Below, piece after piece: positions 3,489 through 19,451 of a stretch of DNA of 21,703 bases (position 1 is its first letter; each line of letters begins with the position of its first letter). The notes beneath the pieces were generated by a model. It did not search any database. It had not been told where the DNA came from and saw nothing but the letters and a program-made list of their open reading frames with translations. Source of the stretch: a virus; the IMG/VR virus record IMGVR_UViG_3300047551_000310, positions 1 through 21,703 of that record. One strand, given 5' to 3'. The position numbers and the translations under genes were made by a program.

Positions 3489-4018
3489 CTACCGCCGGCG
3501 TGCCTTGTCTAGTTCTTTTTTCTCGCGTTCGCCTTTCACTTCATAGTAAGCAGCAAAATAAACAAACTCGGCATCAGTCAGTTCGGTGCGAAGCCGACTC
3601 ACTGTCATGCCGAGTTCAGTCGCAAGGAAGAACTCGAAGAATAGCCACGAGTCTCCCTCTAGTCTTTTTTTGCTTCTTCCAGGCTGGCATCACCACCAAG
3701 GCCGAACAGGAATAGCTCCAGTTCGTTCAGCACGCGCTCCGGCAGTTCCCGTTGCAGCTTGGCTGCATCGGCAGCTGCAAATGCCTTGGTGCCATCCTCA
3801 AGTTCAGCAATCTGGCACAGCATTTGCGTGCTGATCTCTAGGGCTTCATCTGAACCAGCCAAGGTCGTGGCTTTTTTGCGATCAGATCTAGTGATCGGCT
3901 TGAAATACAAGTCCATCACCGGATCGCCAGCATCGTTCCTAATGGTGAACTTACGGCGTTGGTTGAGATCAAAAGCGCCCGTGAGCAAGTCAACAGGGCG
4001 CGTGGATGCAGCAGGCAT
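3489..4018 (-). CDS. Tail assembly chaperone G-T fusion made by -1 frameshift
   Basis: If the ribosome slips -1 on the A7 run opposite 3665-3671, the 119-residue G protein is extended. The fusion shares residues 1-118, then continues RLEGDSWLFFEFFLATELGM and on through a Lys/Arg-rich tail to TAG at 3489-3491, giving 176 residues. The extension is open for 58 codons, is helical and charged like known T domains, and has no well-placed start of its own. In lambda, gpG and gpGT are made at a fixed ratio by a -1 slip and chaperone the tape measure during tail assembly. Here the fusion ends 24 bases before the tape measure ATG, exactly where GT belongs. The frameshift is inferred from sequence and synteny. 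Confidence 0.88.
3659..4018 (-). CDS. Tail assembly chaperone, gpG-like
   Basis: 119-residue unshifted product. It sits between the tail-tube genes and the tape measure gene, the position of lambda G. Visible sequence: a variable N-terminus, a beta-rich region KFTIRNDAGDPVMDLYFKPI (residues about 23-42), then an acidic helical C-terminal half (LAGSDEALEISTQMLCQIAE, RELPERVLNELELFLFGLGG) that ends EEAKKD. The A7 slip site lies at its last codons, with the stop only one codon downstream (GCA AAA AAA GAC TAG). The ATG overlaps the stop of the second tail-tube gene by one base (TAATG). The protein binds the tape measure and recruits tail-tube subunits, by analogy with lambda G. Confidence 0.88.
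   Translation of the reverse strand: MPAASTRPVDLLTGAFDLNQRRKFTIRNDAGDPVMDLYFKPITRSDRKKATTLAGSDEALEISTQMLCQIAELEDGTKAFAAADAAKLQRELPERVLNELELFLFGLGGDASLEEAKKD
3665..3671 (-). promoter_or_regulatory. Programmed -1 ribosomal frameshift slippery site (A AAA AAA G)
   Basis: Read leftward, the sequence is GCA AAA AAA GAC TAG, a run of seven A in the zero frame of the G-like gene, with the zero-frame stop at 3659-3661. A -1 slip on A AAA AAA opens a 58-codon frame ending at 3489. The heptamer fits the X XXY YYZ class of slip sites, and synteny (tube genes, G, slip site, T, tape measure) is that of many tailed phages. Confidence 0.87.
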
Positions 4019-4437
4019 TAAATGCTCAGGGTAAGGGTTCCGCTAGATACGAAATTGATGGTTACAATTTCGATCTCTCCAACGGTAGCACTGTATTCAG
4101 TGCTGGTAACCACAATGGTTCCTGTGATTTTTTTGCCGCCGGTTTCATCTAGGTAAAGCTCAACCGATGCGTCGGCTTCGTCGGTGACCTGGTTGACGTC
4201 CTTGATCAGGTCCAGCTTGTCGCCGGCGCCTGGGGCGTCGTACATGACCTCAATGGTGCCTGATCCGCTGATCAATCCACCGATGTTGGCGCGATAGGTG
4301 GCGCCATGCACGGTGGCGTCATAGGACTCCTTCTCGACGGTCATCGACCAGGAGCGCACAGCAGCGATTTCGGATAGGCCGCCGCTGCCAGCCTTATCAA
4401 AGAAGACTGTGCCTTGTTGCCCGCGATAAAAAGCCAT
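4018..4437 (-). CDS. Tail tube protein paralog B
   Basis: 139 residues. It is a paralog of the gene just upstream (4440-4856): both open MAFYRGQQG and share RSWSMTVEKES, GATYRAN, GGLISGSGT, ELYLD, KKIT and EYSATVGEIE. My hand alignment gives about 60 percent identity with a single one-residue gap. The beta-rich pattern and the position between tail terminator and chaperone genes mark it as a tail-tube (lambda gpV-type) subunit. The two copies differ mainly at residues about 12-27 and 65-90, which could be surface loops. It starts 2 bases after the stop of copy A, and its own stop overlaps the chaperone start. Whether both copies enter the tube or one forms a specialised ring cannot be told from sequence. 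Confidence 0.85.
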   Translation of the reverse strand: MAFYRGQQGTVFFDKAGSGGLSEIAAVRSWSMTVEKESYDATVHGATYRANIGGLISGSGTIEVMYDAPGAGDKLDLIKDVNQVTDEADASVELYLDETGGKKITGTIVVTSTEYSATVGEIEIVTINFVSSGTLTLSI

Positions 4438-4439
4438 GA

Positions 4440-4856
4440 TCAGATGTCGAGAGAGATTGCGCCGTTAGCCACGAAGTTGATGGTGATCACTTCGATTTCA
4501 CCCACAGTAGCTGAATACTCAGCAGAGGTGATGACACCATCAAAGGTGATTTTTTTGGTGCCGCTGGTGTCAAGATACAGCTCAAACAGGGCTGCACCTT
4601 CATCATTGGCGGTATTGATCATCTCGATGAACGCATTGGTTTCATCGCTGGTGGTGGCGGTGTACATCAGCTCACAAGTGCCGCTGCCGCTGATCAAGCC
4701 GCCAACATTGGCTCGGTAGGTAGCGCCTAGTGCCGTAGTGTCCAGCGATTCCTTCTCAACGGTCATCGACCAGGAACGTGTACTGGCGATAGCAGCTGCA
4801 GTGGTGCCGGCGTCGTCAAATTTGACGCTGCCTTGCTGCCCTCGATAGAAAGCCAT
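4440..4856 (-). CDS. Tail tube protein paralog A
   Basis: 138 residues, first of the tandem tail-tube pair. It has the same MAFYRGQQG opening, central GATYRANVGGLISGSGT and C-terminal EYSATVGEIEVITINF as copy B, so the two arose by duplication. The fold prediction (beta sandwich with conserved Gly turns) and gene order support a major tail protein. It starts 2 bases after the stop of the tail terminator gene. As the first copy it may be the main tube subunit, but there is no direct evidence of relative expression. Confidence 0.86.
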   Translation of the reverse strand: MAFYRGQQGSVKFDDAGTTAAAIASTRSWSMTVEKESLDTTALGATYRANVGGLISGSGTCELMYTATTSDETNAFIEMINTANDEGAALFELYLDTSGTKKITFDGVITSAEYSATVGEIEVITINFVANGAISLDI

Positions 4857-5687: not shown

Positions 5688-6044
5688 TCAAGCCCTCAGG
5701 ATTAGCTCATAGGTGATCGGCATGTTGTCCTGCTCAATCGTGGCAACACTGATCACCTGATGGCTGATGCCGCCAATCAGCACGCGATCGGCAGTGCTTG
5801 GTGTTGCCGCAACGTCAACTGCAGCGACCATAAGCCGCTTGTCGCCGGCTTGCACTAACTCATTGACCTCTCGTGCCTTGACATCTTCCAGTACACCACG
5901 GACGACGACATCAGTCGTTGTTTCGCTGACTGCGCCGGTGGTTGGGTTGTAGACGCCTAGCGTTACGGTTCGGATGGTGGCCTCACCGCCGAACCGAGCC
6001 ATCAGCTTGCTGGCGACCTTTTGTAGCGGAGGTGCAAGTGCCAT
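5688..6044 (-). CDS. Probable head closure (stopper) protein
   Basis: 118 residues, mostly beta strand by inspection. It begins with an N-terminal helix (LQKVASKLMARFGGEATIRT), followed by GVYNPTTGAVSETTTDV, REVNELVQAGDKRLMVAAVD and a C-terminal VISVATIEQDNMPITYELIL. A small beta-barrel protein encoded between the connector and the gp10-like neck protein fits the head-closure role of HK97 gp7 or SPP1 gp16. The AGDKRL.VAA..V block recurs in such phage proteins. The assignment rests mostly on size, predicted fold and position. The start overlaps the previous stop (TAATG). Confidence 0.65.
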   Translation of the reverse strand: MALAPPLQKVASKLMARFGGEATIRTVTLGVYNPTTGAVSETTTDVVVRGVLEDVKAREVNELVQAGDKRLMVAAVDVAATPSTADRVLIGGISHQVISVATIEQDNMPITYELILRA

Positions 6045-6295
6045 TAGAGCCTATAGGCGACACAGTGACCGTTCTGCAGCTCAATGCTGGTGAACACACC
6101 ATAAAGGGTCGTATGGGCATTGAAGGTCTGCCCTGCCAGGGTGTTGCCGTCGTAGTTCACTGCCGTGATGTCTTGCACCTGCGTGTTGCTGGTGAAATGA
6201 ATTGCGCACCAGCGGCCGGTATGCGGATCAGTGTCAGAGATGAATGTTCCACCCTTGGCGTAATCAACGCCCCAAATGGCTGAGTAGCTGCTCAT
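6044..6295 (-). CDS. Small beta-rich phage protein, paralog 2
   Basis: 83 residues of unknown function. It is paralogous to the gene just upstream: over an ungapped 68-residue alignment 23 positions are identical (about 34 percent), including ISDT, H.GR, GN, NA, GVFTS and VAY. No transmembrane segment or signal peptide is seen, and it has two Cys (W-C-A, H-C-V). Location between connector and head closure suggests a virion component such as a decoration or neck accessory protein, but this is inference. The ATG overlaps the stop of the paralog (ATGA). Confidence 0.7.
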   Translation of the reverse strand: MSSYSAIWGVDYAKGGTFISDTDPHTGRWCAIHFTSNTQVQDITAVNYDGNTLAGQTFNAHTTLYGVFTSIELQNGHCVAYRL

Positions 6296-6522
6296 ATTTT
6301 GTAGGCGACAACTTTGCCGCTGGCGAGAGTGACACTGGTGAAAACGCCCATGATGCTGTCGCCAGCATTGAGCGGCACTGACGTGAATGCGTTACCGGTT
6401 TGGTTTGCAACTGTTGCTGATGCGATCACTGCATCTGCTACGGCATAAAGCTGCCAGAAGCGGCCTGCATGGGCATTGGTGTCGCTGATGTACTCAAAGC
6501 CAAGACTGTAGGCGCGATCCAT
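6292..6522 (-). CDS. Small beta-rich phage protein, paralog 1
   Basis: 76 residues of unknown function, related to the next gene downstream. It contains FEYISDTNAHAGRFWQLYAV, then TGNAFTSVPLNAGDSIMGVF, then SGKVVAYKI. The pattern of a conserved GR near the start, an AG turn in the middle and a terminal G.V.AY is reminiscent of small proteins near the connector genes of other phages (recalled, not checked). It begins 2 bases after the connector stop and ends in an ATGA overlap, so it belongs to the head-tail operon. It could be a trimeric decoration or neck-plug protein. Confidence 0.7.
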   Translation of the reverse strand: MDRAYSLGFEYISDTNAHAGRFWQLYAVADAVIASATVANQTGNAFTSVPLNAGDSIMGVFTSVTLASGKVVAYKI

Positions 6523-9409: not shown

Positions 9410-9685
9410 TTACCACTTTTCGCGATCTGCCCAATACGCGGCTGACATTTTGCCCTTAGCAATATTCTTGGCGTGTCGCGCTTTGAATGATGCCCTTCTG
9501 GCCTTGTCTGCTGCTGATTCTCCTTTTTGCGCTGGTGAGCCTGATACGCCCTGCTGACCGAACCTAATCAGCTTGACCTGATCACCTTCCTTGGCAAGTA
9601 CCGCATGGGACTTCTTCGGATGGTTTGGGGTGCGCTTTGGCTTGTTGTAGCCATCAAACTGTTCGCCACGATATGTAATGGTCAT
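9410..9685 (-). CDS. Small basic phage protein with FG..G and ARH motifs
   Basis: 91 residues, strongly basic. Its core reads HAVLAKEGDQVKLIRFGQQG, then a Lys/Ser loop, then RRASFKARHAKNIAKGKMSA and AYWADREKW. The order (v.ke..k.v.l.rFG..G, then R..Y/F.ARH, then a Trp-containing end) resembles small uncharacterised viral and phage proteins grouped near DUF5754, from memory and not verified. It lies between head morphogenesis and scaffold genes and starts in an ATGA overlap. Basic composition suggests contact with DNA or the capsid interior, but function is unknown. Confidence 0.75.
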   Translation of the reverse strand: MTITYRGEQFDGYNKPKRTPNHPKKSHAVLAKEGDQVKLIRFGQQGVSGSPAQKGESAADKARRASFKARHAKNIAKGKMSAAYWADREKW

Positions 9686-9840
9686 TTGCGTTTTGGCTTC
9701 TTTGCAGTCTTAGCAGCTGCTTTGAATGCAGCAGCCGTAGGTCGGCCTGCTTCGCCTTTGCGCGCCATGCGTTCATTACTGCCTGCTGCAATGCGCTTGC
9801 GCTTTGCGTGGATGTTGGCATAAAGCCCTGGCTTGGCCAT
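9682..9840 (-). CDS. Small Lys/Ala-rich phage protein
   Basis: 52 residues. It opens MAKPGLYANIHAKRKRIAAG and ends with an Ala/Lys-rich helix (AAAKTAKKPKRK). The phrase (K/T)PGLYANI.AKR.RI.AGS is, from memory, common in short proteins of phages whose late operons resemble this one. The ATG overlaps the preceding TAA (TAATG) and the stop overlaps the next start (ATGA), so it is embedded in a coupled series. The very basic composition would suit DNA binding inside the head. Function unknown. Confidence 0.75.
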   Translation of the reverse strand: MAKPGLYANIHAKRKRIAAGSNERMARKGEAGRPTAAAFKAAAKTAKKPKRK

Positions 9841-10013
9841 TACTTTTTCCCCTTGCGTGATTTGCCGGCTTCATTCAACGCGATCGCTATCGCCTGCTTC
9901 CGGCTTTTGACTTTTGGACCTTTTCCTGGCCCCGGCTTGCCGGTATGGAGGGTTCCCTGCTTGTATTCCCTCATTACCTTCGCCACCTTGTCCGTCTTCT
10001 TTTTGGGCATCAT
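9840..10013 (-). CDS. DUF6496-like small basic protein
   Basis: 57 residues from the ATG at 10013. The next codon is also ATG (10010), giving the family-like start MPKKK, and an in-frame TTG at 10028 is possible. The core KVMREYKQGTLHTGK, then KGPKVKSRKQAIAIALNEAG, matches my recollection of DUF6496 (VM.E(F/Y)K.GTL.SG....VK.RKQAIAIALSEAG). Function unknown. Most of the gene overlaps, in another frame, the C-terminal half of the ORF at 9871-10161. Its stop overlaps the next start (TAATG). A HIP1 octamer (GCGATCGC) lies inside at 9880-9887. Confidence 0.72.
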   Translation of the reverse strand: MMPKKKTDKVAKVMREYKQGTLHTGKPGPGKGPKVKSRKQAIAIALNEAGKSRKGKK

Positions 10014-10161
10014 CAACAGGCGTCTCAATCAATGGTACGCCAGACCGATCAAGCCATGCGGTGGATCCATCAGGGTATTGGACAAGCCTGGCTTCAGTGC
10101 CGTTGTGATCTACAAAATCTGAAGCCTTCCGACCATCGACATAGCTATAGCGCAGATCCAT
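9871..10161 (-). CDS. Hypothetical protein overlapping the DUF6496-like gene
   Basis: 96 residues. The ATG lies 17 bases inside the 3' end of the head-morphogenesis gene. The first 50 residues look like a compact small protein (MDLRYSYVDGRKASDFVDHN, then EARLVQYPDGSTAWLDRSGV). The rest is low-complexity (Gly, Glu, Lys, Pro) and coincides with the antiparallel-free, same-strand overlap with the DUF6496-like gene in a different frame. Without this ORF, about 130 bases between head morphogenesis and DUF6496-like genes would be empty, which is unlike the rest of the operon. So the N-terminal part is probably genuine and the tail may be read-through of an overlapping gene. Function unknown. Confidence 0.6.
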   Translation of the reverse strand: MDLRYSYVDGRKASDFVDHNGTEARLVQYPDGSTAWLDRSGVPLIETPVDDAQKEDGQGGEGNEGIQAGNPPYRQAGARKRSKSQKPEAGDSDRVE

Positions 10162-11365
10162 AGCGTTTTTGCAGTTGCTGCAAGGTTAGCTCTGACCCAT
10201 CATCGCGCACAAATTTAGCAATGGCATCCTTAGGCCCGTACTTACGGCTCAGCATTTCAAAGTATGGAGCCCTACCTTTGCCCAGGATCTCCTCCTGCTG
10301 TGCCTTTGATTGCTTTGCCAGCCATTCGCCGTAGGTCATATCAGCAGGCACTTGGCCGTCTGCTGAAGCGCGCCTGCCGCCTGGCGGTGGAGGAAAGCCC
10401 AGTGCCTCGTAGTCAATCACGGGAACCGTCGTAGACCTGCAGTTGAAGTGCTGTGGCGGGGTCGGACCTTTGCCGTACTCAAACTGGCGGCCATCCAGCG
10501 CCCGGCAGATTGCACTGGTGCGGCTGTCCAGCGTTGCGACATAGCGATACTTGTTCGTGATGTCTTGGTTTACTTCATAAACCTGCTGGCTTGCGGCATT
10601 AGATACCTGATTGATGCTGGTGCGAACGATGGCATTGATCTGATTGTTGGCCACTTTCGTTAGTTCACCACCTGACTGCACTAACTGCCGGACGCTCTTG
10701 GCCTCTTCGCCAAATTCAAGATTACCGATCAGGCGGCGCACAATATCAGGCGTTGGCTCGCCTGTTAGCAGGCCATTGCGTACGACCTGGCTGAATCGTT
10801 CTGCTTGATCTACCGCCAAGCCACGAAATGCTTTCGTCACGACTTCTCCATTAGGAAGCGTGATCGTGGCGCCTTGCGCTGCGGTGAGGTTGAACACACC
10901 AGTGCCAGCTTGGCGGACTAATGCTTCAGTGCCGTAAACCGATTTTAACAGGTCGTCCGATAGCGCAACCACATTGATCTGCGTCGGGTCCGTGGTGATT
11001 ACTGACTGCGCAAATTGCGGGCTGATTTCTACCGTGCGGACGATACTGCGCTCACCAGGCGGCAATGCACGCCGTAGTTGATCTATCACGAACTCAGACT
11101 GCAGCTGCGCAATGCCTTGCAGCTCAGATGCTGTAATCTCCGTTGCGTCACCAGTCCAGCCATCAAGGCTTGCCTTCAGCTGCGCCAGTATTGCCCGTAG
11201 GCGTGCTGCCTTGACCGGTGCGGCGAGGTCATCAATTGTGCGCAGTTGATTTGCAGCATCAATAATGATGTCGTTATAGGCATTAATGATGCGCCTGGCG
11301 ACACTGTTGCTGTATCGGTTCAGATCAATCGCATTGCGGAAGAATGCTGCTGGCGTGTCGCTCAT
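10145..11365 (-). CDS. Head morphogenesis / minor capsid protein (SPP1 gp7-like)
   Basis: 406 residues. The C-terminal half carries the phage head morphogenesis motif of the SPP1 gp7 / Mu gpF family (PF04233): KYRYVATLDSRTSAICRALD at about residues 272-291, then FEYGKG.....P, then HFNCRS at about 306-311, with paired Cys287 and Cys309 and His306. The N-terminal half is helical. The protein is thought to bind the portal and enter the head in a few copies, helping early DNA entry. The start overlaps the portal stop by ATGA, and portal followed by gp7-like is the usual order. The C-terminus (about residues 335-406) is a helical extension. Confidence 0.9.
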   Translation of the reverse strand: MSDTPAAFFRNAIDLNRYSNSVARRIINAYNDIIIDAANQLRTIDDLAAPVKAARLRAILAQLKASLDGWTGDATEITASELQGIAQLQSEFVIDQLRRALPPGERSIVRTVEISPQFAQSVITTDPTQINVVALSDDLLKSVYGTEALVRQAGTGVFNLTAAQGATITLPNGEVVTKAFRGLAVDQAERFSQVVRNGLLTGEPTPDIVRRLIGNLEFGEEAKSVRQLVQSGGELTKVANNQINAIVRTSINQVSNAASQQVYEVNQDITNKYRYVATLDSRTSAICRALDGRQFEYGKGPTPPQHFNCRSTTVPVIDYEALGFPPPPGGRRASADGQVPADMTYGEWLAKQSKAQQEEILGKGRAPYFEMLSRKYGPKDAIAKFVRDDGSELTLQQLQKRYGSAL

Positions 11366-12810
11366 GTCGTGACATCCATGTCCTCCATATCAGGTGATTC
11401 GGCTGGGATGGATGTCGTCTCAGCTACATTTTGCGGTCGCTCCATCATGATTAGGCCGCCCTGCTGCGTTGCCTCTAGCTCTTCTTCAACATCAAAGTCA
11501 TCGCCAAGCACTTCGCCCTGCGCCAGGTTCGTCAATAGGGTTTCCTGTGTAATGGTGCCAGCCGTATAAAGCTGCAGCAATGCAGTGATCTCCTGCGGAT
11601 CAAGCCTGCTGCCCAAGAAATCACGGTTGACATAATTACTGCCGACTTGCGTGATATTGAGATATTGCGCATGGAAAGACAGGCAGTTGTCGATCATGTC
11701 CTGCACCTGCTGCGCGATCACCATCATGGTGCTGTCGCCTTGGCTGCGGTCGATGCGTTTGGCTTCAGCGGTTTCAGCACTGAGCTTCTGGCCCAGCACT
11801 GCCGATAGGCCTAGTTCATTGATCTGTGCTGCCAGTTGGTCCAGTCGGCGGAACTGCGCATCAAATGCCCCGGTCTGTGGCGCGATGTACTCAGCACGAC
11901 CTTCAGCAGGGAATGCAATGGCTTCACCGGGTCCAGCCGATACTTCTTCGGCACTGCTTGGGAAACCAAAGAAGGCCAGCATCGGTACGGCGCTGATATG
12001 AAGCTGGTTATCAAGGTCCGACTGCGCTTGATATGCCTTTAGGTTCAGCTCTGCGATGTCCTCTAGCGGTGGCCTGGATTCCAGCAGCGCCACACGATTG
12101 GCGTAGGCCACGGCAAAAGGAATCCGATCAAGACTTGTAGAGCCCTGCTCAAATAGTTCAAAATCACCTTTATCAGTTTTGCGGTGCAGCTCATATGCGC
12201 CAGGCGTTAGGAGCCGGATCTGCTCGACCAGCTTGTCGCCATATTCACCATCAGGGACGGTTACTGTTTCCTGAAGGCGTAACTGAACCAGCTGCTGCTG
12301 GCCTTCGATCAATTCAGTACGCCAGCCAAGGATTTCGCGTGGGGTGTATGCAACCCAGTACGGACGACCTTGCTGGCCAGCGGCTGGTGCATCAACAAGC
12401 ACACCAACATGGCCGTATCTGATGAGCTTGCGGGCTGTTTCGTATGTCCAAACATTGAGGTCATTGCCTTGGAGATCTACGTCAAACAGCTGCTCGCGGA
12501 TGGCATCATTGACATCATTGAGCTTGACCGGCTTGCGGATCAACATCCCGGCCAGCATCCGCTCAAGCCGCTGGTAGAACGGTGGGCAGACGCTACGCGC
12601 TAGGCGGTTGTCGTAGGACTCGTCCTGCTCCCGTGGTTCCTGCGGTAGATAGCGGCGATGTTTGCGCCTCATGCCATAGGTGCCGCTCATCAAATCTTCA
12701 ATCAAGATCCAATGAGGCTCCTGTGCAAACCATGCTGTGCTTGGATCATTGATCCTTGCAACGGTACGGCGTGCAATGGGCCGATCGTATTGGCGGGAAC
12801 CAGAATACAT
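11362..12810 (-). CDS. Portal protein (DUF4055 family)
   Basis: 482 residues, normal portal size. The sequence opens with a region typical of DUF4055 portals, contains YDNRLARSVCPPFYQRLERM and a nearby GMLIRKPV block (residues about 65-95), then ETARKLIRYGHVGVLVDAPA, and a long C-terminal helical stretch (ETAEAKRIDRSQGDSTMMVI) that would form the portal stem and crown. The portal is the 12-mer ring through which DNA enters and leaves the head. It follows terminase with only small ORFs in between, and starts 2 bases after one of them. Confidence 0.88.
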   Translation of the reverse strand: MYSGSRQYDRPIARRTVARINDPSTAWFAQEPHWILIEDLMSGTYGMRRKHRRYLPQEPREQDESYDNRLARSVCPPFYQRLERMLAGMLIRKPVKLNDVNDAIREQLFDVDLQGNDLNVWTYETARKLIRYGHVGVLVDAPAAGQQGRPYWVAYTPREILGWRTELIEGQQQLVQLRLQETVTVPDGEYGDKLVEQIRLLTPGAYELHRKTDKGDFELFEQGSTSLDRIPFAVAYANRVALLESRPPLEDIAELNLKAYQAQSDLDNQLHISAVPMLAFFGFPSSAEEVSAGPGEAIAFPAEGRAEYIAPQTGAFDAQFRRLDQLAAQINELGLSAVLGQKLSAETAEAKRIDRSQGDSTMMVIAQQVQDMIDNCLSFHAQYLNITQVGSNYVNRDFLGSRLDPQEITALLQLYTAGTITQETLLTNLAQGEVLGDDFDVEEELEATQQGGLIMMERPQNVAETTSIPAESPDMEDMDVTT

Positions 12811-12812
12811 GG

Positions 12813-12941
12813 CTAGATGGGGCGACTAACTACGGTTTTGGTGGTGCCATCTGCTTTTACCTTAATAATGCGATGAATGCGAGGCTCATTTCCCTTTGGC
12901 TTGAGTAGCCGCCCAACGGCAGTAATGGCAGGATTGCTCAT
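12813..12941 (-). CDS. Tiny hypothetical protein upstream of portal
   Basis: 42 residues. It begins MSNPAITAVGRLLKPKGNEP and ends with KVKADGTTKTVVSRPI, a short beta-hairpin-like pattern. The start shares ATGA with the stop of the 44-residue ORF upstream, and the stop lies 2 bases before the portal ATG. A GAGG-like site (in GCGAGGATG) lies about 10 bases upstream. The coupled geometry matches all other genes in the operon, so a real gene is likely. Function unknown. Confidence 0.6.
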   Translation of the reverse strand: MSNPAITAVGRLLKPKGNEPRIHRIIKVKADGTTKTVVSRPI

Positions 12942-13072
12942 TCTTCGTCATCCTCGCTTTCAAGAACCTGCAAAACTAAGTCGTGCTTCAGGAGTTCAAG
13001 GTAGCCAATAACTTCAGCGGCATTCATGCCCCCTTCAATCATGGCGTCGATCGCGGTGCTTAATTGTTCCAT
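12938..13072 (-). CDS. Tiny acidic hypothetical protein
   Basis: 44 residues: MEQLSTAIDAMIEGGMNAAE, then a helical VIGYLELLKHDLV and an acidic end ESEDDEE. It is amphipathic and acidic, in contrast to the very basic protein encoded just upstream (13096-13845), so an interaction is conceivable but not shown. The stop overlaps the start of the 42-residue ORF (ATGA). No clear ribosome site is seen. It is below usual ORF length thresholds. Confidence 0.55.
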   Translation of the reverse strand: MEQLSTAIDAMIEGGMNAAEVIGYLELLKHDLVLQVLESEDDEE

Positions 13073-13095: not shown

Positions 13096-13845
13096 CTACT
13101 TTGCCTTGCGCCTTCTTTTGCGCTTTGGTGGTCCTTGTGTATTGCGAGGACCTGGCCTGATATTGCTCTTTGCGGCCTTTGCCTTGCCAGAACCCATGAA
13201 TGCCATTTGATTGGCATAGATCTGTTGAGCCCTAGCTGCTGGCTTGCTGCCACGAGCGGCTGCAGCTGCAGCTCTTTCCATCCGTCGGCGGATTACCCTT
13301 TGCCCCTTCCGTGTGCCGAGGATGCCGATTTCGATGCCTGCCATAAAGCGATCGGCACTGCTCTTGCTTAAGCGATCTTGCATCGCCTTGGCATTCATTC
13401 GGTCAAACCTACTACTGATCTGCTTAATTCTTGAAACAGACTGCTTCATGTCCTTCATTGACTTATCTATATCACTGATCCTGCGATCTGCTTGCCTCTC
13501 TAGTTGGCCAATGCGCAGCCTTGGCGTTTTTGGATTAAATGTTCTAACTGCATTTGCCTTTACGACTAATGGCCCGCGCCTTGCGCGTCTTGTTGATTTG
13601 ATGCTATTCCCTGGCTCTATGCGCTTCAATCCACCAGTTGCCCTGATATTGCTTGCCGGGGCTGTCTTGGCTGTTGTTCGCTTGCGCTTACCAAGCGTGC
13701 CCACTGGTGCAGTGCCGCCAATGCGCTTGGTTTGAGTGGTGTATCGCCTGCCACTTGCTGTAGTCAGCCTTCCGCCGCGGGCCGTAGCGCCAGTGCTGCT
13801 AAAGCGCCCACGTCGATCTCGCGCATAAGTACGGGCCACGATCAA
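13096..13845 (-). CDS. Highly basic hypothetical structural protein with non-ATG start
   Basis: About 249 residues, extremely rich in Arg and Lys. The N-terminal part reads TYARDRRGRFSSTGATARGG, a pattern (RD..GRF) seen at the start of many phage proteins. The middle (about residues 110-165) is a charged helix, RQADRRISDIDKSMKDMKQS, that could form a coiled coil, and the C-terminus ends PPKRKRRRKAK. No in-frame ATG exists after the stop codon upstream. The start must be TTG (13845) or GTG (13839). It lies between terminase and portal. Such a polycation may condense DNA in the head or bind nucleic acid. No enzyme motif is seen, and I do not recognise a family. Confidence 0.75.
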   Translation of the reverse strand: MIVARTYARDRRGRFSSTGATARGGRLTTASGRRYTTQTKRIGGTAPVGTLGKRKRTTAKTAPASNIRATGGLKRIEPGNSIKSTRRARRGPLVVKANAVRTFNPKTPRLRIGQLERQADRRISDIDKSMKDMKQSVSRIKQISSRFDRMNAKAMQDRLSKSSADRFMAGIEIGILGTRKGQRVIRRRMERAAAAAARGSKPAARAQQIYANQMAFMGSGKAKAAKSNIRPGPRNTQGPPKRKRRRKAK

Positions 13846-13868: not shown

Positions 13869-15218
13869 TCAATAGATTCGGATGCCAGTTCCACGCCCAG
13901 CACTAGCGTGCAATGGGTTGAACTCACGCCATACTAGATAGCCAAGGGCATCGTTCATGTGATCAAATCCCGCATCCTTGTCGGGTTCGCCTTTGTCAGT
14001 GTAGGACTGCAGTTCCAAGCATTCAATCAGTCGCTTGCATGTTGCTGATACTTGCAGCCTGACCTGGCCTTTGCCGTTTTCCAGTAGTGCCTGCACAGCC
14101 GCGACACGATCGCGAACTGGAGGATTGGCGCGTGGTGACTGGTTGGACATGCCGTAGGACTCAAGGATCTGTACGTCGGTCTGGCTTGCGTTTGTGCTGC
14201 GGTTGCTGCCGCTGGCATCCGGATAGACGTACATGCGCCGACGCGGATAACGCCTGACGATCTCCTGGGCCAGGGCATCCGTGTCATGGGCGCCGCTGAT
14301 CTCATTGATCACCAGCAAGCTGGCGCCAAGCCGCACGGCAATCACTGCAGACATGTTGCCGACGTTGAAGTCAACGCCTATGCGCAACGGTTCGTGGTCG
14401 GTGTCTGGCAGCTCATTGACCAGATGCTTGTTGCGGTCGAACCTGTCGTAGACCTGTCCCGTCGTGAGATTGACGAACTCACCGTCCAGGTAGGCGCGCA
14501 GCAGGCTCGGGTCATAGTTTGCCTGAAGCCGTTCGATGAAGTCTGGCGGCAAGTGTGGATTATCAGCGGACCGCATCTTGATCAGATGCCGGTCTGACCT
14601 TGTCTTGGCCTCGTCGCTGCCAAAGGTATTCCACATCCACCGGAAACCTTCCGGCGTACTGGCTGCACCAAACTGCCGCACATTGCCCGCACGCAAGCGG
14701 CCGAGGATCTTCGGAAACGCCTTGTTGGCAATGCTGGGCGTCACCGTGTCGATCTCGTCGGCCAATACCCAGGCAAGGTTGAGGCCAATGATGCGAGACC
14801 AGTTCTCAAAGCTGCGGCAAAGGATCTTGGTGTCACCTCCTGGCAGGTGCAGCATGTACTCCGGCAATGGACTTGCGCGGAAGGTGTAGGGAATCTCGTA
14901 ATACTCCAAGAACTGCTCAAAGTCGTTCTGCCAGATATCACGAATTAATGGACCAGTTGGCTCCATCACGGCACCGATGAAGCCTTGATTGGCCGCGGCC
15001 AACATCACCGCCTTGGCGCATAGAGCCCTGGTCTTGCCAGCACCGTAGCCAGCACTGATGCCAAGGATCTGCGTGGTGGTGTCATCCACAAACGCAAGCT
15101 GCCCTGGATGCAGGCCATTGCGGATACGTTGCAGCAGCTCGTCGGTGTCCTGCTGCGTGGCGACCTCCATAAAGCCAAGCAGGCTGCCAGGCTCACAGAT
15201 GCCAGCGAGCAGGCTCAT
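13869..15218 (-). CDS. terL: Terminase large subunit
   Basis: 449 residues. The ATPase half has Walker A SAGYGAGKT (residues 55-63) and Walker B AWVLADEID (149-157), followed by a coupling-type GAASTPEGF (184-192). The nuclease half has GVDFNVGN (281-288) with its catalytic Asp283, YPDASGSNR (332-340), and DHMNDALGYLVW near the C-terminus, whose Asp residues complete an RNase H-like metal site. This motor cuts concatemers and pumps DNA through the portal. The start overlaps the small subunit stop (ATGA), as expected for a co-translated pair. All key motifs are intact. Confidence 0.95.
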   Translation of the reverse strand: MSLLAGICEPGSLLGFMEVATQQDTDELLQRIRNGLHPGQLAFVDDTTTQILGISAGYGAGKTRALCAKAVMLAAANQGFIGAVMEPTGPLIRDIWQNDFEQFLEYYEIPYTFRASPLPEYMLHLPGGDTKILCRSFENWSRIIGLNLAWVLADEIDTVTPSIANKAFPKILGRLRAGNVRQFGAASTPEGFRWMWNTFGSDEAKTRSDRHLIKMRSADNPHLPPDFIERLQANYDPSLLRAYLDGEFVNLTTGQVYDRFDRNKHLVNELPDTDHEPLRIGVDFNVGNMSAVIAVRLGASLLVINEISGAHDTDALAQEIVRRYPRRRMYVYPDASGSNRSTNASQTDVQILESYGMSNQSPRANPPVRDRVAAVQALLENGKGQVRLQVSATCKRLIECLELQSYTDKGEPDKDAGFDHMNDALGYLVWREFNPLHASAGRGTGIRIY

Positions 15219-16746: not shown

Positions 16747-17087
16747 GGGGTCATGGTGCCTGATCCATGGCGCTGCTGCCATGAAATGTTGCGACTTGTG
16801 ACGCCGGACGCCAAACCCATTGGCATGACTGGGTTCGGACGCAATCGGGCGCAAGTCGGACGCCAAAACCCTTGCAAACACTGGGCGGACGCAAAAACGG
16901 GGTTTCCCCTTACCCCCCCTATACGTAAAAAATGTTCACCCCGTAACATCCCCCCCCTTTCTAAAAATCTGATTTGATTTACCCCTATTTGCGTCCGACA
17001 AGGCAAGAAGGTAGATAGGGGCAAGGTTTTTGCGTCCGAAATTTGCGTCCGACTTGCGTCCGACACGGACGCAACTTGCGTCCGACG
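16747..17087. other. Non-coding origin-like region
   Basis: 341 bases without a gene, the largest gap in the window. It holds ten of the eleven iterons described separately, an AT-richer core (about 16920-16990) and five C-runs. The iterons left of the core (16805-16894) all face one way, and those on the right are mostly in the opposite sense, an arrangement that resembles an iteron-controlled origin. It also must contain any promoter for the leftward clamp-terminase operon, but I could not fix one. An origin role is inferred from the repeats and the adjacent primase-helicase gene. Confidence 0.7.
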
Positions 17088-17161
17088 TCATGCCCATGAA
17101 TCCAGCCTGAGACCCACCAATAGACGATCGCGACTCTTTCCGCCGCCTCTGTCGGACGCAA
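16805..17161. repeat. Iteron family TTGCGTCCGAC / GTCGGACGCAA, 11 copies
   Basis: Copies (complete or one to two mismatches, some truncated): reverse sense at 16805-16811, 16834-16844, 16855-16864, 16885-16894, 17064-17074 and 17151-17161. Forward sense at 16989-16999, 17030-17040, 17043-17053, 17054-17064 and 17076-17086. From 17043 to 17086 four copies lie on an exact 11-base period, one of them inverted, which puts them on one DNA face. The last copy (17151-17161) is inside the primase-helicase C-terminal coding sequence. Such iterons are classic initiator-binding sites. Confidence 0.88.
16906..16985 (-). other. G-run cluster, possible G-quadruplex
   Basis: Five runs of 4 to 8 C on the plus strand (16906-16909, 16913-16919, 16939-16942, 16950-16957, 16982-16985) give G-runs on the minus strand, with loops of 3, 19, 7 and 24 bases. 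The two short loops are favourable, but the two long ones weaken the case for a stable quadruplex. The runs sit between the left and right iteron groups. They would be in the leader of a leftward transcript only if it starts upstream of them. Confidence 0.45.
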
Positions 17162-19451
17162 GTTTCGGGAAGATCCGCCGCAATGCCGGCATCAGTAGCC
17201 GCGGTGCCTTGACCGTCCGATCAGCCGGCGGATCCATCAGCCAGCGCCCACCAGCGTCGATATAACCTTCCTCGCGATACCAGTTCTGTAGAGCGTCCCA
17301 AACGCGTTTGCAAGACACTTGTGCATTTTCATCCCAGGTCAATCCGACGGCATCGCAGAAATCCCAAAGATGGCAAGATCCACGCCTTACATCTTGCATG
17401 GCCTGGTTGCCTGTGGCGTAGTCGATACCATCCGAAACACTGAGTGCCATGCCTTCAAGAAGCCAATTTAAGAACGCTGGGCAGATTTGCTCTTGGATGA
17501 AAGATGGGTCATCCTTTAACCTTGGATCTGCCTGTAGATGCGTCGGTTCTGTTGGTGTTGCCATGAAAGTTTTGCGGAACTTAAACACGTGGAACCGCGT
17601 CTCAATGGCAGCCTGCTCACCAGTCAGTGATGGATCTTTGTTCAAATTAAACACAAACAGCACGGACGGCACAAACTGAGACTCCTGCAAACCCTTCAAC
17701 TCGTAAGACAATTCCTCGCCGCTGATTGCGGCCTTAAGTGATTGCAGGTTGTCAATACTGACGAATTGCGAGTTTTCACTGGACCAATTAACCGATGCAC
17801 CACGAAGCGGCGCGATTGGAAACTTGCGGCCTTGGTCGTACTGCCGAAAATCAGCCAGAGTGCAAGAGGTGAAATTGCGACTACCGAGCGTGTCTCGCAA
17901 CGCCGTGCGGATGGTGTCCTTGCCGTTGCTGCCTTCACCGATCATCAGCACTGCGCGAGGACGGCCTCTGGTGGCGCGATATTTGGCAAGGTCAAGGCCG
18001 CTGCCAAGGATGCGCTGGATAGTGTCACGGTCGCCAGGCTCTACGGCTTCCAGCAATCGCCATAGGTGCTGTGCGTTGGCTTGAGGGTCGTAGTCGTAGT
18101 CGGTGACGTAGGTAAAAGCCACATCCGGGTCATGCGGTGTGAAGGACAGGTCAAGCTTGCGGCCTGACCATGACCAAGACACCACGCCATTGCGGCAGTT
18201 AATGGCATTCGATGGGTTGACATCAACCGGCTTGAGGAGCCGCCGCATCCATGCCAGGGCTTCATCTACATATTTGGGACGGCGCCATGGGTAGACCGGT
18301 TCCGACTGCTTTTCGGTTCTGACATGCAGCAACGAGAGAAAAGCCGCCAGCTCAGGCGCTATCTCCTCGTCGGGCCTTGCTTGGTAATGCGTGCCATTCC
18401 AGCAATGGAGTACGCCGTCAACACAAATCCAGCGGTCACGGGGATGCTTAAAGACATGGGTGACAGCAAGATCAAGCCATTCGGTGCCGGCCTTGTCATA
18501 GAGCTGCAGGTTGACGACCTCACCATCTGATGGCTGCCGACGCGGCCGAGGCATTGGCGTCGCTGGCCTCCAGCCGTGATGCCGCGCCCAGTACCAGAAG
18601 GTGCCAGCGGTGATGCGGTCACCACCTGAGGATGCGATCTGCTCAAGGCCTTGCCATTGCGGGCTGTGCTGCTGCATCAGCTCAATGGCGAGGTCGGCGC
18701 TACCGCAGGCTTGGATCAGCCCCCAGAAGATGTTGCGGTAGATGTGGTAAGTGCCGCTACCTGGTGTGCGTGGCGGGATAACAGCAAGGGCATCACGGAT
18801 GTCGCTGATGCTGCGCTCTACTGGTTCGGTGTGCTGCTGTGCTGGCTTCTGGTGCTGATAGAAGGCCTCGGACGGCAGGACCGCTTCGATGTCGGCAACG
18901 GTGTAGCGATGGCCGGCGCTAGTGACCATCTGGCACGGATCACCGAGACTGCCATCAGCCATGGCGTAGTAGCTGCCGGGCAACCGCATGACGCGCGAGG
19001 CGTTCTTGATGCTGCGGTCGGCATCGCAATAGTCGAGTAGTCGCGCCTGCACCAGCTCCCAGTGAGCCGGTGTAATCGGATCGGTGAGAACCCAGTAGCT
19101 GTGGATGGATTTGCCGCCGGTGTTGATCTGAAACGTGGGCTCAGGCAACTTGAGCGACTGCCATGCGGTGAGCTGCCATTCGCGCGGTCGGTCGTCCCAT
19201 TCAGCAAAGAAGGCACGACAGGCGGTGATGTCGGCATTGGTGTCACCGCCATCGTTGATGACGACGTAGACGCCACGACCTTCGGCTTGCCATTGCTCGA
19301 TGAGCTTCTTGGAGGCACCACCTTTGCGGCCCTTGTCGGTGCCTTTGTCTGGGTGGTCGCGATGGAGGAAGGCGCGAAGACGGATGGCACCGGCCGGCTT
19401 GCCGAGCAGGGCAATGAACCGACGAGCTTCATCAAAGTCGATGGGCTTCAT
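17088..19451 (-). CDS. Primase-helicase (AEP-like primase, PriCT_2-like linker, SF3 helicase)
   Basis: 787 residues. Residues about 1-190 resemble phage/plasmid AEP primases: a metal-binding FFAEWDD (81-87), a GGKSIHSYWVL motif (113-122) and DRSIKNASRVMRLPG (145-159). Residues about 215-295 resemble PriCT_2 (ISDIRDALAVIPPRT and a following WGLIQACGSADLAIELM). The C-terminal half is a P4/D5-type SF3 helicase with Walker A GEGSNGKDT (505-513), a B-type NWSSEN (555-560) and a sensor stretch VLFVFNLNKD (597-606). It probably melts the origin, primes and unwinds DNA. The gene starts in an ATGA overlap with the small RHH gene and ends 2 bases from an iteron. One iteron lies inside its 3' end. Confidence 0.9.
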   Translation of the reverse strand: MKPIDFDEARRFIALLGKPAGAIRLRAFLHRDHPDKGTDKGRKGGASKKLIEQWQAEGRGVYVVINDGGDTNADITACRAFFAEWDDRPREWQLTAWQSLKLPEPTFQINTGGKSIHSYWVLTDPITPAHWELVQARLLDYCDADRSIKNASRVMRLPGSYYAMADGSLGDPCQMVTSAGHRYTVADIEAVLPSEAFYQHQKPAQQHTEPVERSISDIRDALAVIPPRTPGSGTYHIYRNIFWGLIQACGSADLAIELMQQHSPQWQGLEQIASSGGDRITAGTFWYWARHHGWRPATPMPRPRRQPSDGEVVNLQLYDKAGTEWLDLAVTHVFKHPRDRWICVDGVLHCWNGTHYQARPDEEIAPELAAFLSLLHVRTEKQSEPVYPWRRPKYVDEALAWMRRLLKPVDVNPSNAINCRNGVVSWSWSGRKLDLSFTPHDPDVAFTYVTDYDYDPQANAQHLWRLLEAVEPGDRDTIQRILGSGLDLAKYRATRGRPRAVLMIGEGSNGKDTIRTALRDTLGSRNFTSCTLADFRQYDQGRKFPIAPLRGASVNWSSENSQFVSIDNLQSLKAAISGEELSYELKGLQESQFVPSVLFVFNLNKDPSLTGEQAAIETRFHVFKFRKTFMATPTEPTHLQADPRLKDDPSFIQEQICPAFLNWLLEGMALSVSDGIDYATGNQAMQDVRRGSCHLWDFCDAVGLTWDENAQVSCKRVWDALQNWYREEGYIDAGGRWLMDPPADRTVKAPRLLMPALRRIFPKLASDRGGGKSRDRLLVGLRLDSWA

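Follow-up and report, generated by a model that had tools for sequence, protein, structure and literature searches.

A modular family of tagged, strongly basic proteins encoded in the head-gene block of viruses of aquatic cyanobacteria

What does an extremely basic protein do between the terminase and portal genes of a virus, and to which family does it belong? We address this question in the window, by which we mean the whole 21,703-base IMG/VR virus record that was analysed. Its terminase is 80-82% identical to those of Synechococcus phages KBS-S-2A and S-H1 and 76% identical to those of Prochlorococcus phages MED4-117/184, and its portal is 62-78% identical to the portals of the same phages; the window is a virus of aquatic cyanobacteria. 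A sequence-only reading of this DNA had described an arginine- and lysine-rich protein with no ATG start, suggested that it may condense DNA inside the head with a small acidic ORF as its partner, and seen no relatives by eye. Its description of the gene was confirmed: ORF 13096-13845 on the minus strand holds 249 codons from TTG, ends in PPKRKRRRKAK and has no in-frame ATG at or before the N-terminal region that we call the tag, and its neighbours are indeed the terminase large subunit (TerL) and the portal (PHROG/Pfam). Because relatives that start with ATG (MARRYARD...) align to the third codon of the TTG-started ORF, the start is most likely, on alignment, the GTG at 13839-13837, which yields 247 residues and lies 29 nt past the TerL stop; by our script's start rule, GTG begins 5 of the 98 full-length members described below, this one included. 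Read from the GTG, the protein has 43 Arg, 23 Lys, 8 Asp, 4 Glu and no Cys (pI 12.0, net charge +54, 27.3 kDa), values that, with its place between TerL and portal, support the view of it as a polycation encoded in the head and packaging block. A different viral contig with a 98% identical terminase (L001) encodes an identical protein. The features discussed here are as follows.

13096..13839, minus strand: tagged highly basic protein, 247 aa from GTG (earlier ORF 13096-13845 from TTG); ORF reading, alignment, composition, dN/dS
13720..13839, minus strand: N-terminal tag region, residues 1-40 (M/VARTYARDRRGRFSSTGATARGGRLTTASG...); alignments, dN/dS
13801..13821, minus strand: invariant tag core R-D-x-x-G-R-F, residues 7-13; invariant columns, in members picked by the same motif
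13198..13524, minus strand: predicted helical core, residues 106-214; AlphaFold2, partly conserved across divergent relatives
13099..13167, minus strand: Arg/Lys-rich C-terminal tail, residues 225-247 (PGPRNTQGPPKRKRRRKAK type); AlphaFold2 and alignment
12938..13072, minus strand: acidic 44-aa partner ORF; composition, synteny
12813..12941, minus strand: 42-aa third cassette gene (TAVGRLLKPKGNEPRIHRIIKVKADGTTKTV); composition, synteny
13869..15218, minus strand: terminase large subunit (context); PHROG/Pfam
11362..12810, minus strand: portal protein (context); PHROG/Pfam
10145-11365: MuF protein, a separate gene (context); PHROG/Pfam

Elsewhere in the window, TTGCGTCCGA recurs eleven times, on both strands and with no more than 1 mismatch, in a segment of ~330 bp (16835-17161) at the end of gene 17088-19451 and the start of the next minus-strand ORF. 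Window-wide there are 12 copies against 1.6 expected, and the array is iteron-like, a putative origin or regulator array. Two adjacent similar ORFs of 139 and 138 aa at 4018-4856, both beginning MAFYRGQQG..., look like tandem paralogues by sequence, as do two small overlapping ORFs with similar sequences at 6044-6522.

Relatives of the window protein

Direct searches with the window protein returned little: no family in Pfam or PHROGs, no cultured-phage match by tblastn against a phage collection to E 10, a best E of 0.094 in a PDB sequence search, and a single viral contig match, identical in protein, by homology search. Relatives were reached instead through the neighbouring terminase and portal genes, using the best 80 of at least 599 and the best 80 of at least 597 confirmed matches, which yielded at least 145 sequences with both genes (the window and re-fetched copies counted). 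Six of these loci carry full-length relatives of 42-44% identity, all before TerL; other loci match the window protein mainly over its first 45-70 residues, in genes before TerL or between TerL and portal. The gene had been said to have no recognisable relatives, which is wrong: at least 98 full-length phage relatives share its N-terminal tag. In all we collected 108 distinct tagged ORFs, including several edge-truncated copies, and used the 98 full-length ones, among which close variants are not independent.

Other routes were negative. The phage collection gave nothing by tblastn with the tag, with three other tagged proteins, or with the acidic and 42-aa ORFs, so that neither small protein has a cultured-phage match by that search; a tag profile scan of bacterial genomes gave no confirmed relative; HU, H-NS and H1 profiles were absent among the matches of the window protein (E up to 1) and of 74 members (E up to 0.01); and among the open PMC papers listed for the literal tag motif, or for virion proteins that are internal or basic, we recognised nothing relevant to the family. 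The gene is under coding constraint, and a spurious ORF was rejected by dN/dS of 0.08-0.33 among nine related, window-type genes where estimable, comparisons with the window itself lying near synonymous saturation. The tagged proteins are a real modular phage family, previously unnamed and absent from every library searched, with a cassette of small partners. We hold as most likely, at about even odds, the reading that tagged genes encode accessory head-cargo proteins, that is, polycations packaged with the DNA and addressed by the tag, and we weigh it below against three others.

A conserved tag on differing bodies

Members of the family share an N-terminal tag (R-D-x-x-G-R-F, usually MARxYxRDxxGRF) followed by differing, strongly basic bodies. 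Alignments of 30 starts, and of 74 members whose bodies differ, both show R7, D8, G11, R12, F13 and G17 as invariant, an invariance that is partly a product of selection since aligned members were picked by RD..GRF(-like) patterns. The tag comes in two flavours, ATARGGRL and Gly-rich. We scanned 23 records totalling 727 kb, namely the window and 22 contigs or isolate genomes; RD..GRF turned up in 15 six-frame segments (40 aa or longer) where 0.43 would be expected by chance, and a chance origin of the motif was rejected. Every one of the 15 begins a basic ORF inside the block from TerS to scaffold, on the strand of that block, in a sample that includes near-copies (window/G001, G018/G019) and many incomplete contigs. 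Whether homologs are confined to phages with similar head genes had been proposed as a check, and relatives from the same phage group are restricted to the head/packaging block in the records scanned. A six-frame scan found no tag in the isolates S-H1, KBS-S-2A and MED4-184, and its absence from these cultured relatives counts against the head-cargo reading.

The same confinement bears on the first alternative, a late-expressed moron whose target in the infected host would be its nucleoid, its ribosomes or its defence, and whose place in the head block would reflect late transcription only. Late-operon morons are known for an accessory, exchangeable and polycationic habit, and the tagged gene is all three; a moron would, however, explain neither the shared tag nor why, in the records scanned, tagged genes keep to the head part of the late block and stay out of its tail part, and we consider it very unlikely.

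The tag is maintained by selection at the protein level, to judge from codon comparisons. Pairs of tagged genes with unrelated bodies have 75% tag identity while 63% of their 4-fold sites differ (8,026 pairs, non-independent), close to the 70% expected for random codons; the tag is therefore kept as protein, and recent DNA copying of the tag was rejected as a sole explanation. In several pairs synonymous change is higher for the tag (e.g. L018/L060, pS 0.38 versus 0.16 for the body) and in others for the body (L018/L064, pS 0.25 in the tag versus 0.40), which suggests that tag and body have had separate histories in some genes.

The window-type body is one of many. An alignment of 18 members, distant backbones included, shows a conserved core and tail (RAxRAAAAAARGSKPAARAxxIYxNQLAFxGxGK...PGPRNTxGPPKxxRxRK), and a scan with the body core retrieved 59 viral loci and one cyanobacterial MAG contig (L330). 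These provide 47 distinct ORFs with a window-type core, in which the tag is in frame in 29, is not in 13, and would lie off the contig in 5; the 13 without an in-frame tag also tell against the head-cargo reading. Five of the 13 have the tag upstream in another frame (L255, L334, L365, L370, L381), and others of the 13, the MAG contig among them, show it in no frame. Tag and conserved body lie in different frames in those five and in L382, which may reflect a frameshift, an assembly error or a programmed shift. AlphaFold2 models of the window protein (9 sequences) have a mean pLDDT of 58.6, with residues 15-103 below 50, helices at 106-174, 177-195 and 199-214, and then the basic tail; at this low confidence the first ~100 residues are predicted as if disordered.

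Three other bodies look enzymatic or chaperone-like, at the level of motifs or sub-threshold matches. Two (L121:1956-2825 and L291:6001-6966) share HExxH and SPAEFxAET at 36% identity with no Pfam match, a possible metallopeptidase at motif level, and one (L308:128-1204) has a DnaJ-like stretch containing HPD (E 2.9e-5, below the Pfam cut-off). Together with the great variation among bodies and the accessory status of the gene, these three argue against the plain structural condenser.

They also lend something to a second alternative, an effector or toxin that the virus would bring into its next host in the style of MuF toxins or polyvalent proteins, with a small partner as antidote, for which the conserved front end and variable C-terminal part would be fitting. 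We regard this as improbable on several grounds: the small neighbours of tagged genes are conserved across differing bodies, unlike cognate immunity; Pfam, PHROGs and NCBIfam gave only weak single-member matches for 74 members (best 0.0015, 0.0017 and 7.6e-5, the last to TIGR04320); the fold prediction of the HExxH body is not confident (pLDDT 37); and no catalytic motif was recognised in the window's own body.

Both systems allow a closer comparison. Like MuF polymorphic toxins (PMC5576092), the tagged proteins combine a conserved N-terminal part, a variable C-terminal part and a head-gene neighbourhood; unlike them, they have bodies that are mostly polycations without a recognised domain and partners that, being conserved across differing bodies, do not look cognate, and the MuF domain (Phage_Mu_F) had no Pfam match in 74 tagged members. 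They resemble polyvalent proteins (PMC5512222) in being variable, in their late-gene neighbourhood, in the proposed packaging and injection, and in the HExxH zincin-like motif of two members; polyvalent effector domains were not recognised in any of 74 members (Pfam, PHROGs, NCBIfam).

The cassette and its insertion slots

The acidic ORF of the window (12938-13072) is present as described, encoding 44 residues of pI 4.05, and is followed just ahead of the portal by the 42-aa gene. The latter occurs in 78 distinct contexts, 68 of them directly after a tagged gene; 6 more are too near a contig end and 4 lack a preceding tagged gene by the same test, two of these (L145, L155) apparently following truncated members, one (L255) a frame-broken member, and one (L304) none that we could see. 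Counting the window and its twin, there are 69 cassettes of tagged and 42-aa genes. The gap between the two genes is at most 60 nt in 26 of them, leaving no room for an acidic ORF, a further point against the head-cargo reading. In the other 43 it is longer: 41 of these gaps contain a small acidic ORF that stops at the edge of the 42-aa gene or just within it, and the remaining two contain another tagged gene. For the acidic family itself we counted 68 distinct contexts. A same-strand tagged gene lies no more than 300 nt away in 55 of them, 3 are at contig edges, and 10 lie elsewhere, which again speaks against the head-cargo reading; 9 of the 10 are in contigs with a tagged gene (6 with one only on the other strand). 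In one distant backbone (L282) the acidic ORF lies between portal and MuF.

Many of these loci had been fetched by the tag, and we recounted in the 156 loci (47 with the tag) to which terminase or portal had led. There, of 31 contexts of the 42-aa gene, 25 have a tagged gene no more than 300 nt away (5 edges, 1 not), and the acidic family lies near one in 17 of 21 (3 edges, 1 not), L155 being the sole non-edge exception for both; selection of loci by the tag was thereby rejected as the cause of the pattern. The association differs between tag flavours, with a 42-aa gene within 700 nt downstream of 56 of 72 ATARGG-tag genes versus 8 of 44 Gly-rich-tag genes (absent within that distance in 16 and 36, respectively), absences that also count against the head-cargo reading. 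By synteny, the acidic 44-aa and 42-aa ORFs belong to the same movable cassette as the tagged gene, and the suggestion that the acidic ORF is a partner gains support from the 41 of 43 gaps, the 55 of 68 contexts and the 17 of 21 in loci not fetched by tag.

The nearest anchors of tagged ORFs are TerS and TerL in 48 cases, TerL and portal in 12, MuF and basic91 in 11, and portal and scaffold in 8, TerS being a label that we assume from position and familiar appearance rather than from a profile; the remainder comprise single cases of other anchor pairs (one of portal and MuF), one-anchor cases and 8 anchorless ORFs. Across the loci that gave the 108 ORFs, tagged genes and their neighbours share a strand in all 183 of 183 relations. 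The tagged gene adjoins a MuF-type gene in two phages that are more distant (L207, L272). Some distant backbones (L265, L282, L289, L291) have tagged genes on both strands or adjoining an endolysin gene, an arrangement that weighs against the head-cargo reading. The L291 contig has five tagged genes, on both strands, in one stretch.

The tagged gene is accessory, because only 14 of 32 comparable contigs, ascertained by terminase or portal and spanning the region, carry one. This bears on the third alternative, a non-virion helper of head assembly or packaging: an accessory protein that would bind nucleic acid or head proteins through the tag, act in the cell with terminase, portal or scaffold, and be left behind. 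Tagged genes directly adjoin those for TerS, TerL, portal, MuF and scaffold, and their partners are small and closely spaced, as such a helper would have it. A helper of conserved machinery would itself be expected to be conserved, however, whereas many bodies are unrelated and fewer than half of the comparable contigs carry one, and we consider the helper unlikely.

Composition is uniform across placements. The 98 full-length members have a net charge of 14-30 per 100 aa and no Cys in 25,567 residues; with the Gly-rich-tag scan added, 137 tagged ORFs with 34,273 residues contain a single Cys, which belongs to a fragment of 17 aa. Cys content is 0.48-1.36% in TerL, TerS, portal, MCP and MuF and 0.006% in scaffold. 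As evidence for the head-cargo reading this must be tempered, since low Cys is also typical of disordered proteins and is common to small Lys-rich head-block ORFs and the tape measure. The window has three such Lys-rich, Cys-free ORFs between MuF and scaffold (9410-10028; phrog_7595, phrog_16028, PF20106/DUF6496), possibly related in role to the tagged protein; like members of the tagged family they are basic, Cys-free and found beside scaffold, and unlike them they lack the tag and fit existing PHROG/Pfam families.

Addressing proteins into phage heads

On where the protein docks, whether it sits in the virion, binds DNA and is ejected, and what its small partners do, we infer the following. 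The conserved N-terminal tag would be an address through which the protein attaches to scaffold, portal or MuF protein while the head is being built. Its variable and strongly basic body would then stay inside, on the packaged DNA, and may leave the head together with that DNA. Until assembly, the small acidic protein, perhaps with the 42-aa protein, would keep the polycation in solution or away from nucleic acid. Cassettes would be swapped as units between insertion slots of the head block, giving different phages different cargo.

The closest known parallel is phage T4, whose internal proteins are described as basic, divergent and addressed to the head core by N-terminal propeptides of 10-19 residues (PMC9026906, PMC7697877). 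As with IPI-IPIII and Alt with their capsid targeting sequence, the tagged proteins are basic, accessory and divergent behind a short common N-terminal sequence, and as in T4 there can be several per genome, while related phages use a similar address on basic proteins of other kinds (PMC9026906, PMC7697877). Unlike in T4, the tag is longer and Arg/Gly-rich, acidic and 42-aa partners are present, the head is of MuF/portal type, and the place in the virion is a prediction. Homology to T4-type internal proteins was not found beyond one of 74 members, which matched phrog_5750 'internal head protein' at E 0.0044. A PHROG/Pfam scan of ten head-region ORFs, the coat ORF not among them, brought up no separate prohead protease and so gives no sign of processing in the T4 manner; the window's MuF ORF partially matches phrog_595 'head maturation protease' over residues 189-356. 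By analogy, the tagged family most likely works like the T4 internal proteins without being homologous to them.

A more specific form of the head-cargo reading is one that we advance tentatively: cyanobacterial siphoviruses of this group may use an R-D-x-x-G-R-F head-addressing system, unrelated to that of T4, to bring unrelated polycations (a few of them chaperone- or peptidase-like) into MuF-type heads, with an acidic mini-chaperone and with cassettes swapped among three main slots. If true, it would be a second, independent way of addressing proteins into phage heads, drawn from aquatic viruses, and would reveal a hidden class of variable cargo genes recognisable by a short motif. It would also provide a short label with which proteins might be loaded into siphovirus heads, and a way to ask what such phages deliver into cyanobacteria alongside their DNA.
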